A stretch of DNA of 64,000 bases, from assembly GCA_003562475.1 (NCBI GenBank), contig PWUU01000063.1, positions 1-64,000 on the forward strand, written 5' to 3'. Positions 22,953-33,189 of this stretch are shown in pieces. Position numbers and translations under genes: made by a program. The DNA comes from Dehalococcoidia bacterium (lineage in GTDB: Bacteria; Chloroflexota; Dehalococcoidia; GIF9; AB-539-J10). The stretch's first letter is position 1. Every line of letters begins with the position of its first letter. Under the pieces are notes generated by a model. The model was given only the letters and a program-made list of their open reading frames with translations, was not told where the DNA came from and did not search any database.

Positions 22953-23447
22953 ATGAGATGCCCGTTCTGCGGCGCACTTGAGTCGAGAGTGATCGACTCG
23001 CGCGGCCTGGAGGATGAGGTGAGGCGCCGGCGAGTCTGCTCCATCTGTGGGTCACGCTTCACCACCTCAGAACGCGTGCAGAACTACGCCCTCTTCATCG
23101 TGAAGAAAGACGGCCGCCGCGAGGCATACGACCGGGCGAAGCTCGCTGCAGGCATCCACAAGGCATGTGAGAAACGACCCCTGCCTACGGGATCGGTTGA
23201 GAAGCTCATCACCGGGATCGAGGAGCATATTCACGAACTCGGCAGGGCGGAGATACCGAGCACCATCATAGGCGACCTCGTCATGGAGGGACTCGAGAAG
23301 CTTGACCACATTGCCTATATACGGTTCGCCAGCGTCTATCGCGAGTTTGCTGACATCGGTGCGCTAAAGGATGCGCTTGAGAGCCTCGCAACGGCACAGA
23401 ACGCCCTCCAGCTACCTCGGACCGGATCGAAAGGCGTTCCGCGATAG
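22953..23447 (+). CDS. nrdR: Transcriptional repressor NrdR
   Basis: MRCPFCGALESRVIDSR...RRRRVCSICGSRFTTSERV zinc ribbon plus ATP-cone. Confidence 0.96.
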   Translation: MRCPFCGALESRVIDSRGLEDEVRRRRVCSICGSRFTTSERVQNYALFIVKKDGRREAYDRAKLAAGIHKACEKRPLPTGSVEKLITGIEEHIHELGRAEIPSTIIGDLVMEGLEKLDHIAYIRFASVYREFADIGALKDALESLATAQNALQLPRTGSKGVPR

Positions 23448-23468: not shown

Positions 23469-25964
23469 ATGACACGACGAACAACCCGCAGAGAGAAACC
23501 TCCGGTCACCACCGATGACGTCGCCAGGGCGGTCTTCTCGGCAGCCGAATCCATCGGCGTTACCGACCGGGACCTGCTCGAACAACTCACCGAAAAGGTG
23601 AGCGAACGACTGGGAACTGCCCGCCCTTTGCCCGGCATGGAAGACCTTGTCGGTACAAAGAAGCAGCCTGTGTCACGGACACCCGCAGCGACACGAGCAC
23701 GGGTGAAACCGCTCAAGATTGTGCCCTCAGAGGACACCATGACGGCCGCTGCTCGTGGTGCTTCAGGTTTGGCGCTCTCGCGCAACGCAATGACCGTTCT
23801 TGAGCGCAGATATCTGTCAAAAGGGTCGGACGGGACCCCCGCTGAGACGCCCGAAGAGTTGTTTCGCCGTGTCGCGCGCCACGTGGCGCGTGCCGAAACC
23901 ATCCTTAATCCCGGAGCAGACGCGCACTACTGGGAGGAGCGGTTCTATGAGGCCATGACACGGCTCGACTACCTGCCCAACTCCCCCACACTGATGAACG
24001 CGGGAAGAGAACTGGGCCAGCTGTCAGCCTGCTTCGTCATCCCTGTGGAGGACTCTATGGAGTCCATCTTCGATGCTGTGAAGCACACGGCCCTCATCCA
24101 CAAGAGCGGCGGCGGCACGGGCTTCTCGTTCTCGCACCTTCGACCGGCGAGAGACCGCGTCGGCAGCACAGGAGGAGTCGCCAGCGGTCCCCTGTCTTTC
24201 ATGCAGGTATTCGATAAGACAACCGACGTCATCAAACAGGGTGGCATGAGACGGGGAGCCAACATGGCCATCCTCGACGTCACCCATCCGGACATCAGAG
24301 ATTTCGTATCCGTCAAGCGGGAGCCCGGCGTCCTGACAAACTTCAACCTGTCGGTGGGCGTCACCGACGAATTCATGCACGCCGTACGCTCTGATGCCGA
24401 GTACAGCCTGTTGAACCCGCGGACCGGCCAACCTGTGGAACGTGTGCGGGCAAAGGACGTGTTCGACCAGATTATCGACATGGCCTGGCTGACCGGCGAC
24501 CCCGGTATCGTCTTCCTGGATGAGATCAATCGCCGTAATCCAACACCTCATCTGGGCAGGATCGAGAGCACCAATCCTTGTGGAGAACAACCTCTCCTGC
24601 CCTACGAATCGTGTAACCTCGGATCAATCAACCTCGCTCATATGGTGAACGACAGCAGGAATCCTGCAGCAATCGACTACGAGCGCCTCGGCGAGATTGT
24701 AAAGCTTGCCGTGCGGTTTCTCGACGATGTCATCGAGGTCAACGAGTTTCCCCTCCCGGAGATACGGGAGCGGACCCTTGCGACGAGGAAGATCGGCCTT
24801 GGCGTCATGGGATTTGCGGATATGCTCCTCCGACTCAACGTGCCGTACAACAGCGAGGAGGCGCTGACTACCGCAGAGGAAGTCATGGGCTTCATCTCGC
24901 GCAGGGCGGATGAGTGTTCGGCAGAGCTGGCACTGGAACGCGGAGTGTTTCCTGCGTTTCAGGGCAGTGTGTATGACTCGGACGGAGGCCCCGGATACCG
25001 AAACGCGTCGCGTACCACCATAGCGCCGACCGGCAGCCTCAGTATACTGGCAAACTGCAGCAGCGGCATCGAACCCCTTTTCGCACTCACCTACGTGCGC
25101 CGCATACTCGATCGAGAGGACTTCCTCGAGGTCAATCCATATTTCGAGGAGGAGGCCCGCGAGAGAGGATTCTACAGCGAGGAGATGATGCGGCTGCTTG
25201 CAGAGGGCACTCCGCTCCGGGATATGGAAGAGGTACCGGATGATATCAAGCGCAAGTTCGTATGTGCGTACGATGTCGCTCCCGAGTGGCACGTACGGAT
25301 GCAGGCAGCCTTCCAACGGCACACCGATAGTGCTGTCTCGAAAACTGTGAACTTCCCACGCACGGCAACCCGGGAAGACGTGGCGAACGTCTACATGCAT
25401 GCGTTCGAGCATGGACTCAAGGGAATCACCATCTACCGCGACGGCAGCCGCAGCGACCAGGTACTCAGCACGGGAAGCTCGAAGACAGAAGGGAAGCATA
25501 CTATTGTGCCCCGACTCCGACCAAAGGTCACGCGTGGTGTGACTGAGCGCATCACTACCGGGTGCGGCAACATGTACGTCACCATCAACTTCGATGACAG
25601 CGGCGTGTGCGAATCCTTCGCGACGCTTGGCAAGGCAGGCGGATGCGCTGCAGCTCAACTTGAAGCAACCAGCAGGCTCATCTCAAACGCCCTGCGCTGC
25701 GGCCTCGACCTTGGTTCCATTGTAAAAAACCTGCGCGGCATCCGGTGTCCCTCTATCTCGTGGGAACAGGGAAAAGCGGTGACCTCATGTGCTGATGCAA
25801 TCGCAGGAGTGCTCGAGAAATACGTGGCTGTTGATCAGGACACCCCGGAGGGGACTGCTCGCGCCATGGGCCCCGGGGGCCAGTGCCCGGAATGTGGCGG
25901 AGGCCTTATATACCAGGAAGGCTGCAGTATCTGTATCTCGTGTGGATATACCAAGTGTTCATAG
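23469..25964 (+). CDS. nrdJ: Class II (adenosylcobalamin-dependent) ribonucleoside-diphosphate reductase
   Basis: LPNSPTLMNAGRELGQLSACFV, NLSVGVTDEFM, ESTNPCGEQPLLPYESCNLGSINL, RTTIAPTGSLSILANCSSGIEP, C-terminal zinc-ribbon-like CPECGGGLIYQEGCSICISCGYTKC. Confidence 0.94.
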   Translation: MTRRTTRREKPPVTTDDVARAVFSAAESIGVTDRDLLEQLTEKVSERLGTARPLPGMEDLVGTKKQPVSRTPAATRARVKPLKIVPSEDTMTAAARGASGLALSRNAMTVLERRYLSKGSDGTPAETPEELFRRVARHVARAETILNPGADAHYWEERFYEAMTRLDYLPNSPTLMNAGRELGQLSACFVIPVEDSMESIFDAVKHTALIHKSGGGTGFSFSHLRPARDRVGSTGGVASGPLSFMQVFDKTTDVIKQGGMRRGANMAILDVTHPDIRDFVSVKREPGVLTNFNLSVGVTDEFMHAVRSDAEYSLLNPRTGQPVERVRAKDVFDQIIDMAWLTGDPGIVFLDEINRRNPTPHLGRIESTNPCGEQPLLPYESCNLGSINLAHMVNDSRNPAAIDYERLGEIVKLAVRFLDDVIEVNEFPLPEIRERTLATRKIGLGVMGFADMLLRLNVPYNSEEALTTAEEVMGFISRRADECSAELALERGVFPAFQGSVYDSDGGPGYRNASRTTIAPTGSLSILANCSSGIEPLFALTYVRRILDREDFLEVNPYFEEEARERGFYSEEMMRLLAEGTPLRDMEEVPDDIKRKFVCAYDVAPEWHVRMQAAFQRHTDSAVSKTVNFPRTATREDVANVYMHAFEHGLKGITIYRDGSRSDQVLSTGSSKTEGKHTIVPRLRPKVTRGVTERITTGCGNMYVTINFDDSGVCESFATLGKAGGCAAAQLEATSRLISNALRCGLDLGSIVKNLRGIRCPSISWEQGKAVTSCADAIAGVLEKYVAVDQDTPEGTARAMGPGGQCPECGGGLIYQEGCSICISCGYTKCS

Positions 25965-25985: not shown

Positions 25986-27407
25986 GTGACAACGTCCCGC
26001 GGTCGCTACTACGCTGGATTGCAGCTGATAACCGCAGTGTCGAATGCCAATCTATCATTGCGCCGTACCTGTAATGCGATCGCCAAAGCCATCGCAAAAT
26101 CCATGGGAATGACCGGCTGCAGGGTGCTCCTGCTCAATCCGAAGAACGAGTATCTCACGACGATAGGCTCGTTCGGACTGAGCGATCTCTATCTGCGAAA
26201 AGGCCCGCTTGATGCCAGGAAGAGTCTGCCTGAAGTACTCGACGGCCGCATTGCCGTGGTTGCTCATGCGCCCTCCGACGAGCGGCTCCAGCATCCGGAA
26301 GTCGCCGAATCGCAGCAGGTGGTGTCGATTGTGGCTGCTCCACTCATGCGCGGCCAGGACACGATAGGCCAACTGCGCATGTATTCAAGGGAGACACATT
26401 CGTTCTCTCGCCTGGACGAGGAGTTCCTCAGAGCCGCAGCTAACATATGCGCAGTAGTGCTTGAGAGAGCCGAACTCCTGCAGTTCAAGGAACGGGTGAA
26501 GAGGTCCTGCGCAAAGACGCCGAGAAGGGCCTTACCTGCACAAATGCCCGTCAGCTCGCTTAAACCTACGGAGTTCGCGCACGAGAGCGAGGTGGAGTTC
26601 GCCAACCTGCTGGACTTCTACCAGATAGAGTGGCTCTACGAACCCCGCTCGTTTCCGCTCGGATGGAATGGGGATGAGGTGTCGCAGATGTTCACGCCCG
26701 ACTTCTATCTGCCTGAGCTGGACATGTACGTCGAGCTGACCACGATGAAGCAGGACCTTATCACCTCAAAGAACCGCAAGGTGCGCAAGCTTCGCGAGAT
26801 GTATCCCGACATCAATATCAGGCTACTCACACGCAAGGACTTCGCGCGACTGCTGTCCAAGTACGGCTATGGCCCCATGGGTGACGCCAGAGTCGAAGGA
26901 GTCGGCCGGATCCTCTACAGCCACGTGCAGATACAGAGAAGGGTGCGCTCACTCGGGAGGCGAATCTCCAAAGATTATGTAGGGCAACGAATAGTCATGA
27001 TAGGCGTGCTCAAGGGGGTCATGTGCTTCATGTCGGACCTTATGCGGCACATCTCTATTCCCATGAGAGTCGACTACATGGACATCTCCCACTATGGAGG
27101 AGAGGAAGACGTGGTCAAGATCACCAGGGACCTGGACTCGTCGATCTCCGGAGAGCATGTGCTCATGGTGGAGGACATAGTGGACACGGGAATGACGCTG
27201 AATTACATACTGGCCCACCTCGCATCACACCGACCGGCCAGCCTCCGCGTGTGTACCTTACTCGACCGCAAGCCAAGACGACTGGCAAACGTGAAACTGG
27301 ACTACGTAGGTTTTGAGATACCGGACGAGTTCGTGGTGGGTTACGGTCTCGACTACAAGGGCGAATACCGGAATCTGCCTTCTATCGGCATTCTGCACCA
27401 AGAGTAG
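25986..27407 (+). CDS. Three-domain fusion: GAF domain, PD-(D/E)XK-like domain, hypoxanthine phosphoribosyltransferase
   Basis: GAF-like aa 1 to about 165; nuclease-like aa about 196-292 (ESEVEFANLLDFYQIEWLYEPRSFP...FTPDFYLPELDMYVELTTMK); HPRT aa about 300-473 with PRPP loop VLMVEDIVDTGMTL. GTG start. Confidence 0.8.
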   Translation: MTTSRGRYYAGLQLITAVSNANLSLRRTCNAIAKAIAKSMGMTGCRVLLLNPKNEYLTTIGSFGLSDLYLRKGPLDARKSLPEVLDGRIAVVAHAPSDERLQHPEVAESQQVVSIVAAPLMRGQDTIGQLRMYSRETHSFSRLDEEFLRAAANICAVVLERAELLQFKERVKRSCAKTPRRALPAQMPVSSLKPTEFAHESEVEFANLLDFYQIEWLYEPRSFPLGWNGDEVSQMFTPDFYLPELDMYVELTTMKQDLITSKNRKVRKLREMYPDINIRLLTRKDFARLLSKYGYGPMGDARVEGVGRILYSHVQIQRRVRSLGRRISKDYVGQRIVMIGVLKGVMCFMSDLMRHISIPMRVDYMDISHYGGEEDVVKITRDLDSSISGEHVLMVEDIVDTGMTLNYILAHLASHRPASLRVCTLLDRKPRRLANVKLDYVGFEIPDEFVVGYGLDYKGEYRNLPSIGILHQE

Positions 27408-27412
27408 GCAGC

Positions 27413-27964
27413 ATGAGCCATATCCGACAACAGACGCGCCTCTCGCTTCTTATACCACGAAGTGCCATCGAGCAGACAGTTGCGAGGCTCGCCGCACAGA
27501 TTACTGAGGACTACCGCGGGAGACAGCTGGTCGCCGTGGGCGTGCTGAAGGGTGCATTCATCTTCATGGCCGACCTCATAAGACAACTGGACATCCCTCT
27601 GGAGATCGATTTCGTGGCAGTCTCCAGCTACGGCGGAGCCACCGAGAGCTCTCGCACAGTGGTGATGCAACATGATCTTGCAACAGATGTGCGCGGCAAA
27701 GACGTCCTCGTGATCGAGGATATCGTCGATAGCGGCCATACGTTGTGTTACCTGCTCAAGCACCTGAAGGGTAAAGGGGTCGCCTCCATTCGTCTCTGTG
27801 CGCTCGCCGACAAGCCATCGCGACGCGAACTCAGTGTTACGATAGACTACCTGGGATTCACCGTGCCCGACCGCTTCGTGGTTGGCTACGGTCTCGACTT
27901 CGATAACAAGTTCCGCTACCTTCCGGACATCTACGCAGTGGAGACATATGACGCGGACAGCTGA
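27413..27964 (+). CDS. hpt: Hypoxanthine phosphoribosyltransferase
   Basis: GVLKGAFIFMADLIRQLDIPLEIDFVAVSSYG, VLVIEDIVDSGHTL, VPDRFVVGYGLDFDNKFRYLPDI. Confidence 0.95.
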   Translation: MSHIRQQTRLSLLIPRSAIEQTVARLAAQITEDYRGRQLVAVGVLKGAFIFMADLIRQLDIPLEIDFVAVSSYGGATESSRTVVMQHDLATDVRGKDVLVIEDIVDSGHTLCYLLKHLKGKGVASIRLCALADKPSRRELSVTIDYLGFTVPDRFVVGYGLDFDNKFRYLPDIYAVETYDADS

Positions 27965-30928: not shown

Positions 30929-32173
30929 GTGAAAGACTCAAGTCAGCAAATACGGTTCTGCGTTATTGCAGACGACCTGACGGGGGCGATGGACACCGGC
31001 GTGGGCCTTGCCCAGGCGGGGCTATCTGCAGTGATCACGTTTTCCGGCCTCGCAAAGGTTACGTCGGACGCCGTCGTTGCAACCACCGACAGCCGTGCGA
31101 TATCCGCGAGAGAAGCTTACCGCCGTGTGAAGTCGGTTGCCGAACGTTTCCACGACTACTACATCTACAAGAAGATAGACTCTACCCTGCGTGGCAACGT
31201 AGCCACTGAGCTTCAGGCACTGCTCGACGTAACCCGTGCGCTTCACGCAGTGGTGTGTCCCGCATTCCCGGCCATCAAGCGCACCGTTGTCAACGGACAG
31301 CTTATGGTCGACGGCACTCCAGTACACAAGACGAGCTTCTCCCGTGATCCTGTGAGTCCGGTGAACCGTTCCGACATTGTCGAGTTGCTGCGGACCGGCT
31401 CGGGGATCTCCGCCGGGAGCCTGGGTCTCCGGGACGTGGAGCGCGGCCCCGAACACCTTGCCGGACGCATACACAGAAGCGAGCACAGGGCGATTGTCAT
31501 CGACGCGACCGAAGACAGGCACCTCCGCTGCATCGCAGACGCACTGGCGCTGAGCAACGAGCGGTTGCTCCCGTGCGGCTCCGGCGGACTGGGAGCACAG
31601 ATTCCCCTCGCGTTTGGTTATTCCGATCGTGGTCATAGTCTCCTTCCCGCTCTCACCGGTCCAACGCTGCTCGCGGTAGGCAGCCGCAACGATGTGAGCG
31701 CCCGACAACTCCAGAGGGTGATGGAGACCATTCGACCACCCTTCGTCAAAGTGGAGCCCCGGGAGTTCAGGACCAGAGCAGGAAGGAGTCCCCGCGCCAA
31801 TCAGCTTGCGGCCGAGATAGTCGATCTGCTGGCCAAGCACAGGGTGGTGGTCGTCAGTTCAAGTCTGAGCGACTACTCGCCACAGCTGCGACACACGATG
31901 GCTCCCATTCTTGGCGCCATCGTGCTCAGGGTGCTTGCCACCGCCACGCTCACAGGGTTATTCCTGTCGGGTGGCGACGTCGCGCGCACCGTCTGCGGGG
32001 ACGATGGCATACAAGGATTGAGGATTCTGGGTGATCTTCAGCCGGGCGTGATCGTCGGTGAAGCGGTGGGATCGCGTTACCGGGATCTCCGCGTGGTCAC
32101 CAAGGCCGGAGGTTTCGGTAACGAGGAAGCCATGGTCCAGGCAATCAAACACCTGAGTCAAGGGGAACAGTAA
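30929..32173 (+). CDS. Four-carbon acid sugar kinase family protein (DUF1537; DtnK/OtnK-like)
   Basis: RFCVIADDLTGAMDTGVGLAQAG N-terminus, YKKIDSTLRGN, C-terminal LFLSGGDVARTVC...GVIVGEAVGSRYRDLRVVTKAGGFGNEEAM. Confidence 0.9.
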   Translation: MKDSSQQIRFCVIADDLTGAMDTGVGLAQAGLSAVITFSGLAKVTSDAVVATTDSRAISAREAYRRVKSVAERFHDYYIYKKIDSTLRGNVATELQALLDVTRALHAVVCPAFPAIKRTVVNGQLMVDGTPVHKTSFSRDPVSPVNRSDIVELLRTGSGISAGSLGLRDVERGPEHLAGRIHRSEHRAIVIDATEDRHLRCIADALALSNERLLPCGSGGLGAQIPLAFGYSDRGHSLLPALTGPTLLAVGSRNDVSARQLQRVMETIRPPFVKVEPREFRTRAGRSPRANQLAAEIVDLLAKHRVVVVSSSLSDYSPQLRHTMAPILGAIVLRVLATATLTGLFLSGGDVARTVCGDDGIQGLRILGDLQPGVIVGEAVGSRYRDLRVVTKAGGFGNEEAMVQAIKHLSQGEQ

Positions 32174-33189
32174 TGAACAGCTACATCCCGTTGCTTGCCA
32201 TTACGATGGGCGATCCTGCCGGAGCAGGGCCGGAGATAGTGGTGAAGGCACTGAATGACCCGGCAGTGCGGCCCATCTGCCGGGGACTTGTTGTCGGCGA
32301 TGCCGGTACCATGCGAGCCGCTGCGGAAATCGTTGGCATTCCTGTAGAGGTCCACGCCGTTTCATCTGCTGATGAGATGAACGACGGAGAGATGGCGATG
32401 AATGTGTTCGACCTCAAGGACGTCGACCTCTCCACGCTCGTTCGCGGCAGGGTCGCCGCCAGCGCCGGAAAAGCCGCATATGATGCGGTGGAGAAAGGTA
32501 CGCTCCTGACACTTGAGGGCAAGACAGACGCAATAGTCACGGGACCTCTGAACAAGGACGCGCTCAACCAGGCCGGATATCACTTTCCGGGGCACACACA
32601 GATACTGGCCCACCTGTGCGGCGTGAGCGACGCGGTAATGATGCTGGTGGCAGACAACCTCAGAATCGCACATGTTTCCACCCATGTCTCACTGCGCGAG
32701 GCGTGCGATCTTGTCTCAAAGGAACGAATCCTTCGTGTCCTGCAGCTCGCCATCGATGCCACCAGGTCTATGGGCGTCGAGAAGCCCCGCGTGGTCATCC
32801 CCGGCCTGAATCCACACTCAGGTGAGGGCGGCCTCTTTGGAGACGAGGAACAGACTCACATCTTTCCCGCGATAGAGGAGGCGAAGCAACTCGGAATGGA
32901 TGTGAGAGGACCCCTCCCTCCGGATACGGCATTCCTCAGGGCATTCCGGGGCGAGTTCGACCTCGTCATTGCGATGTATCACGACCAGGGACACATCCCA
33001 ATCAAGATGGTCGGATTTGAGAAGGGCGTCAATGTCACACTGGGACTGCCAATCATCCGAACGTCGGTGGATCACGGAACCGTATTCGGAAAGGCTGGCA
33101 AGGGCACAGCAGATCCCACAAGCCTGATAGAGGCCATCAAGCTGGCTGCGACGATGTGTCGCATTGTGCGAGAGACACGAAGCTCATGA
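32173..33189 (+). CDS. pdxA: 4-hydroxythreonine-4-phosphate dehydrogenase family (PdxA/PdxA2)
   Basis: LLAITMGDPAGAGPEIVVKAL, VTGPLNKDALNQAGYHFPGHTQILA, VIPGLNPHSGEGGLFGDEE, AMYHDQGHIPIKMVGFEKGVNVTLGLPIIRTSVDHGT. Confidence 0.94.
   Translation: MNSYIPLLAITMGDPAGAGPEIVVKALNDPAVRPICRGLVVGDAGTMRAAAEIVGIPVEVHAVSSADEMNDGEMAMNVFDLKDVDLSTLVRGRVAASAGKAAYDAVEKGTLLTLEGKTDAIVTGPLNKDALNQAGYHFPGHTQILAHLCGVSDAVMMLVADNLRIAHVSTHVSLREACDLVSKERILRVLQLAIDATRSMGVEKPRVVIPGLNPHSGEGGLFGDEEQTHIFPAIEEAKQLGMDVRGPLPPDTAFLRAFRGEFDLVIAMYHDQGHIPIKMVGFEKGVNVTLGLPIIRTSVDHGTVFGKAGKGTADPTSLIEAIKLAATMCRIVRETRSS

Follow-up and report, generated by a model that had tools for sequence, protein, structure and literature searches.

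Among the genes of a member of the Dehalococcoidia (phylum Chloroflexota) is one whose product joins, in a single polypeptide, an N-terminal GAF domain, a central nuclease-like segment and a C-terminal hypoxanthine phosphoribosyltransferase (HPRT), and which is followed immediately by the gene for a separate HPRT. This arrangement raises the question of whether the fusion is a purine salvage enzyme or something else derived from one. The gene was examined within a stretch of 64,000 nucleotides (contig PWUU01000063.1 of assembly GCA_003562475.1), hereafter called the window; the fusion, its domains and the nrd and hpt genes next to it all lie on the plus strand.

Architecture and conservation of the fusion

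The fusion gene (25986..27407) starts with GTG and specifies a protein of 473 amino acids. The next ORF, the separate HPRT, begins at 27413 after a gap of 5 bp, and both the limits of the gene and this spacing are as had been given in an earlier, sequence-only reading of the DNA. The GAF domain, which that reading placed at the N-terminus as a GAF-like sensor, is confirmed at aa 25-159 (26058..26462) by a match to PF01590 (E=8.2e-10; 39.8 bits against a Pfam cut-off of 22.4). No significant Pfam or NCBIfam match was obtained for the residues between GAF and HPRT, which contain the domain here designated X.

Of 61 genomes belonging to the same family or order, 51 gave long matches to the fusion; one match ends at a contig edge and another carries a single internal stop. 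Since the whole GAF-X-HPRT frame is kept uninterrupted in approximately 50 of these 61 genomes, the architecture is not due to chance. Between species of the window's genus synonymous sites are near saturation. Within the genus pN is 0.03-0.08 for X, 0.07-0.12 for HPRT and 0.14-0.22 for GAF, and X, having the lowest values, is under tighter constraint than either of the other domains.

The central domain

The layout of a PD-(D/E)XK nuclease, which the sequence-only reading had recognized in the central segment, is borne out by the fold and by comparisons with sequence profiles, profile-profile alignment among them. A profile built from 22 X domains (in the window protein aa 193-296; 26562..26873) matched T7/T3 endonuclease I in the PDB with E=0.0011. 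Relatives of X are present on phage contigs, and a profile made from these phage relatives gives 2e-12 with T7 endonuclease I and also matches archaeal Bax1 nucleases. When X was aligned with the phage nucleases using hhalign the probability was 99.6% (E=1.1e-24), and PHROG endonuclease families match X directly (phrog_15137, endonuclease, 3.5e-9). The restriction-endonuclease fold that a structure prediction was expected to reveal here was found in the AlphaFold2 model (mean pLDDT 88), in which the elements H8-19, E31-36, E39-44, E55-59, H64-80, E86-89 and H91-100 follow the order alpha-beta3-alpha-beta-alpha. Foldseek matches of this model in the PDB were mostly PD-(D/E)XK nucleases (PvuRts1I, the R2 nuclease domain, PspGI, Bax1, AbaSI, Vsr and TnsA), the first four with probabilities of 0.91-1.00; no match had an E-value under 0.005, the best being 5.9e-3. 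Judged mainly from the sequence profiles, with which the predicted structure agrees, X is a T7-endonuclease-I-like PD-(D/E)XK domain. With 14 K/R and 17 D/E residues it is slightly acidic overall, and basic only in its C-terminal half.

Residues of the active site were counted over 136 distinct X domains and 42 viral stretches. The acidic residues E202 of motif I (26589..26591), D239 of motif II (26700..26702; PDF = P238-D239-F240) and E250 of motif III are each found in 136/136 X domains, these being non-independent counts since the homologues share ancestry. Motif III reads E250-L251-T252 (26733..26741): where (D/E)-X-K is expected all 136 X domains have E-X-T, as compared with K in 41 of the 42 viral relatives. 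The sequence-only reading had correctly picked out E202, PDF, E250 and the threonine at the catalytic lysine position in the window protein. The lysine three residues on, K255, is unlikely to be the displaced catalytic residue, being K in only 111/136.

A better candidate for a relocated lysine is K262 (26769..26771), which lies in the following helix and is present in 136/136 X domains and at the corresponding position (E+9) in 0/42 viral stretches, an equivalence that holds only if a gap of 3 residues precedes the helix, where hhalign and a downstream Tyr-Pro marker both put it. The DUF1626 family (PF07788) of PD-(D/E)XK proteins resembles X in having Thr in motif III and conserved Lys/Arg residues in the helix that follows, which its authors explained by lysine migration (PMC1913061); it differs in its domain partners, and X gave no Pfam match to PF07788. 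From these alignments migration of the lysine to K262 would be as plausible as decay of X. Because the acidic triad and K262 are invariant, two readings of X are live, and the degenerate nuclease that had been suspected is only one of them.

The HPRT domain

The C-terminal part of the fusion (aa 305-473; 26898..27404) scores 192.2 bits with TIGR01203 over aa 310-470, above the cut-off of 150, and its fold matches in the PDB are bacterial HPRTs with 41-49% identity. Using the numbering of the human enzyme we compared 117 distinct X-fused HPRTs with 35 solo HPRTs and with 23 unfused HPRTs from genomes in which X is separate, 22 of the latter being confirmed to adjoin X and one lying at a contig break.

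The Ser-Tyr dipeptide of the HPRT loop is required for catalysis. At this site the window protein has H369-Y370 (27090..27095), human Ser103 having been replaced by His. The serine is kept in 35/35 solo HPRTs and in 22/23 of those with a separate X (57/58 unfused in all), and is absent from 115 of the 117 fused domains, where Y, R, H, T, P, N, Q, K, G, A and E are found instead; two retain it. Loop II is also shorter, with 34-35 residues in 73/76 GAF-fused HPRTs versus 37 in 34/35 solo ones. The purine-contact residue Lys165, K in 35/35 solo HPRTs, is R in 33/117 fused ones including the window protein (R428; 27267..27269), whose binding of ppGpp or IMP may, to judge from this residue, differ.

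The PRPP loop (EDIVDTGMT, aa 396-404; 27171..27197) is conserved. E133, D134, T138 and G139, together with D193 and R199, are fixed in 117/117 fused HPRTs, and the window protein has the complete set of PRPP-motif and Mg/PPi residues (E133, D134, D137, T138, G139, T141, D193 and R199). D137N occurs in 27 fused HPRTs, all of them among the 41 GAF-less fusions (27/41). GAF-fused members retain D137 and mostly Tyr104, residues with which residual or altered catalysis is possible. The earlier description of this domain as an intact HPRT therefore holds for the PRPP loop and fails at the catalytic loop serine (His369) and the purine-contact lysine (Arg428).

The fused HPRT domains form one clade (SH-aLRT 92), and for this reason the serine was probably lost long ago, once or a few times, after which the site drifted. 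The PRPP-binding residues, from their pattern of conservation, probably stayed constrained while the Ser103 site drifted.

Canonical HPRT copies

The separate HPRT behind the fusion (27413..27964; TIGR01203 198.7 bits) keeps both the Ser-Tyr dipeptide and Lys165. An origin of the two neighbours by tandem duplication was rejected, because the downstream copy groups with the canonical HPRTs of Dehalococcoidia, outside the fused clade; as the tree is read, it is a canonical hpt that came to lie immediately after the fusion in the genus of the window. Such a second, canonical HPRT is encoded in 40 of the 42 genomes with a fused copy, presence and absence counts being affected by the incompleteness of metagenome-assembled genomes (MAGs), which may account for its absence from the remaining two (G014 and G117). 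The suggestion that the fusion was unlikely to be the only salvage enzyme is strengthened by this count and by the loss of the loop serine in 115/117.

Among six high-quality genomes of one genus (g32), four (G090, G134, G149 and G165, as against G099 and G242) lack X but keep the canonical HPRT, a pattern which suggests repeated loss of the fusion. In four Thermomicrobia-type genomes (G230, G184, G238 and G246; loci L217, L221, L222 and L223) the canonical HPRT lies inside ORFs of 670-705 aa, possibly TilS-HPRT fusions.

Gene neighbourhood and distribution

In the window the fusion gene stands behind ftsA-ftsZ-nrdR-nrdJ. The gene for NrdR (22953..23447; TIGR00244, 168 bits) is a conserved upstream neighbour, and that for NrdJ, the B12-dependent ribonucleotide reductase (23469..25964; TIGR02504, 731.6 bits), is separated from the fusion by 21 nt. 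The scan of genome contigs for X kept the best 80 of at least 587 matches. Among the 80 named loci there are 31 in which the fusion gene is directly 3' of nrdJ; nrdR and ftsA-ftsZ usually lie farther 5'. Loci outside the nrdJ lineage have varied neighbours, none of which is conserved except hpt. Two loci (L141 and L142) have a standalone X near a PRPP-synthetase-like gene, which may be a further link to PRPP; an association with PRPP synthetase was not accepted, the genes being convergent and two genomes too few to count.

Across 201 Chloroflexota genomes 58 X genes were found, of which 47 are tied to HPRT: 13 encode GAF-X-HPRT, 12 X-HPRT, and 22 are X genes standing directly before a separate hpt that is read in the same direction. 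The other 11 do not adjoin hpt, one of them sitting at a contig end. X-fused HPRT is carried by many Chloroflexota, and the unfused, fused and GAF-fused states are, as read from these gene arrangements, a fusion series linking the function of X to HPRT. The plasmid collection held one true X member, that of Thermomicrobium roseum. A RelA/SpoT homologue is encoded in the window's genome.

Some further observations may be recorded. The dnaE gene (1654 aa) of a Miltoncostaea oceani plasmid has an X-related stretch (L213:5001-5246), possibly an intein homing endonuclease, and at L146:3908-5314 there are tandem copies of X, the second truncated or frame-shifted. Elsewhere in the window (30929-33189) is a D-threonate-kinase-like gene, under the curated cut-off, with pdxA directly after it, likely a four-carbon acid sugar catabolic pair. 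A search of PADLOC defence families gave only weak partial matches to the fusion protein (best E=3.5e-4 over 50 residues), and none was assigned.

Function of the fusion

Taken by its sequence the fusion is very unlikely to be a salvage enzyme. We consider it somewhat more probable than otherwise that it is a regulator or effector in which an HPRT-derived sensor of PRPP or purine nucleotides, possibly ppGpp, would control a PD-(D/E)XK domain acting on nucleic acid. A nucleotide sensor on an HPRT scaffold, as predicted by the sequence-only reading, is the best-supported reading, with a canonical HPRT in 40/42 genomes and the serine lost in 115/117. It is suggested by the retention of the ligand-binding residues, the loss of the catalytic loop and the presence of a canonical paralogue, a combination also seen in the PurR of Firmicutes, whose PRT domain is without enzymatic activity and senses PRPP and ppGpp (PMC8789054). 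A further precedent is that ppGpp is known to bind in the pocket of HPRT by way of the PRPP motif (PMC6783271), and the genome has a RelA/SpoT homologue. Also in favour of this reading are the shortened loop II, D137N in 27 fused HPRTs, the single clade of the fused HPRTs, the kinship and shared fold of X with phage PD-(D/E)XK nucleases, the tie of X to HPRT in 47/58 and the strong purifying selection on X. With its PRPP pocket kept and its loop serine lost the HPRT domain would bind PRPP, a purine nucleotide or ppGpp as a ligand sensor, and we infer that control would run from this sensor to X. The target of X in turn would be nucleic acid, which it would bind in a metal-dependent manner or else cleave with its lysine relocated to K262, and the GAF domain would provide a second input. 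Such a protein could have arisen from adjacent genes, X then hpt, which fused and to which GAF was added in Dehalococcoidia. In the gene order of the window its position would suit a response to nucleotide supply, together with nrdR-nrdJ and ftsA-ftsZ. Counted against a sensor are the TIGR01203 score, which lies above the cut-off, the retention of D137 in GAF-fused members and the 11/58 X genes away from hpt; the slightly acidic character of X overall counts against its acting on nucleic acid.

The first two of these points, together with the PRPP loop, D193 and R199 kept in all GAF-fused members, would also suit an active phosphoribosyltransferase whose base specificity or regulation has shifted, and to which X and GAF were accessory targeting or regulatory domains. 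Other phosphoribosyltransferases use different loop residues. We regard this as unlikely, as the serine has been lost from almost all fused domains in favour of many different residues, D137N is found in 27/41 GAF-less fusions, and the genomes almost always have a canonical paralogue as well. A different doubt concerns X, which might be a dead nuclease fold with no role beyond that of a protein-protein adaptor, NrdJ, NrdR and the canonical HPRT being possible partners. The lost motif-III lysine, the lack of net basic charge overall and the tight linkage to hpt would all fit, but an adaptor would have no need to keep all three acidic metal ligands in 136/136 domains, and we think this reading distinctly improbable.

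The same invariant triad, with T252 and K262 in 136/136 and a lysine at the latter position in 0/42 relatives, argues for a stronger form of the sensor-effector reading, overlapping with it, in which X is an active nuclease, using K262, that is turned on by the HPRT and GAF domains. The DUF1626 nucleases offer a precedent for such an active site (PMC1913061), and there are the weak matches to PD-(D/E)XK defence proteins. We hold this nucleotide-gated nuclease to be possible, if doubtful: the equivalence of K262 hangs on the 3-residue gap before the helix, and a defence island would not be expected to show such synteny in the chromosome, such deep conservation or a 47/58 linkage to hpt. It is with comparable hesitation that we would extend the idea to a phylum-wide PRPP- or alarmone-gated nuclease, its lysine moved to the next helix, through which dNTP supply and cell division genes in Chloroflexota would be tied to purine status.

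Comparison with known systems

The closest parallel to the proposed sensor is PurR of Bacillus subtilis, where a regulatory PRT domain likewise derives from a purine phosphoribosyltransferase, keeps the PRPP motif and has apparently lost its catalytic role. There the output is a winged HTH, for which (PF09182) the fusion protein gave no Pfam match, whereas the fusion has PD-(D/E)XK and GAF domains and a PRT part that is a true HPRT-family domain. It resembles bacterial HPRTs (TIGR01203, including the ppGpp-regulated enzymes) in scoring above the family cut-off and in its PRPP loop, D193 and R199, and differs from them in the lost loop II serine, the shortened loop, Lys165 replaced by Arg (window protein), the added GAF and X domains and the coexisting canonical paralogue. 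With T7 endonuclease I and the phage PD-(D/E)XK nucleases X shares the fold, the Glu of motif I, the PDF of motif II, the Glu of motif III and significant profile similarity; unlike them it has the motif-III lysine replaced by Thr in all homologues, a new invariant helix lysine and a cellular partner, hpt. By its motifs, then, the fusion is neither a PurR (no PurR HTH), nor a standard HPRT (altered loop), nor a standard EXK nuclease (altered motif III), though its sequence points clearly to descent from an HPRT and an EXK nuclease.

Significance

The open-access literature searched yielded no description of a GAF/X/HPRT fusion. GAF-X-HPRT is widespread in Chloroflexota, but an account of it as a well-characterised architecture, which would have told against the earlier reading, was not found in that literature. 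The X-HPRT of Thermomicrobium roseum is annotated simply as 'hypoxanthine phosphoribosyltransferase', and it is by such labelling as an enzyme that the fusion has been hidden. If the sensor reading is true, the fusion would add to PurR another purine phosphoribosyltransferase turned sensor, but with a nuclease-type output, and in a phylum whose nucleotide regulation is poorly known. Because unfused, fused and GAF-fused states coexist today, the conversion of enzyme to sensor could be tested stepwise. Genome-based predictions of purine salvage in the organisms that bear the fusion may be counting a protein which is not an enzyme.
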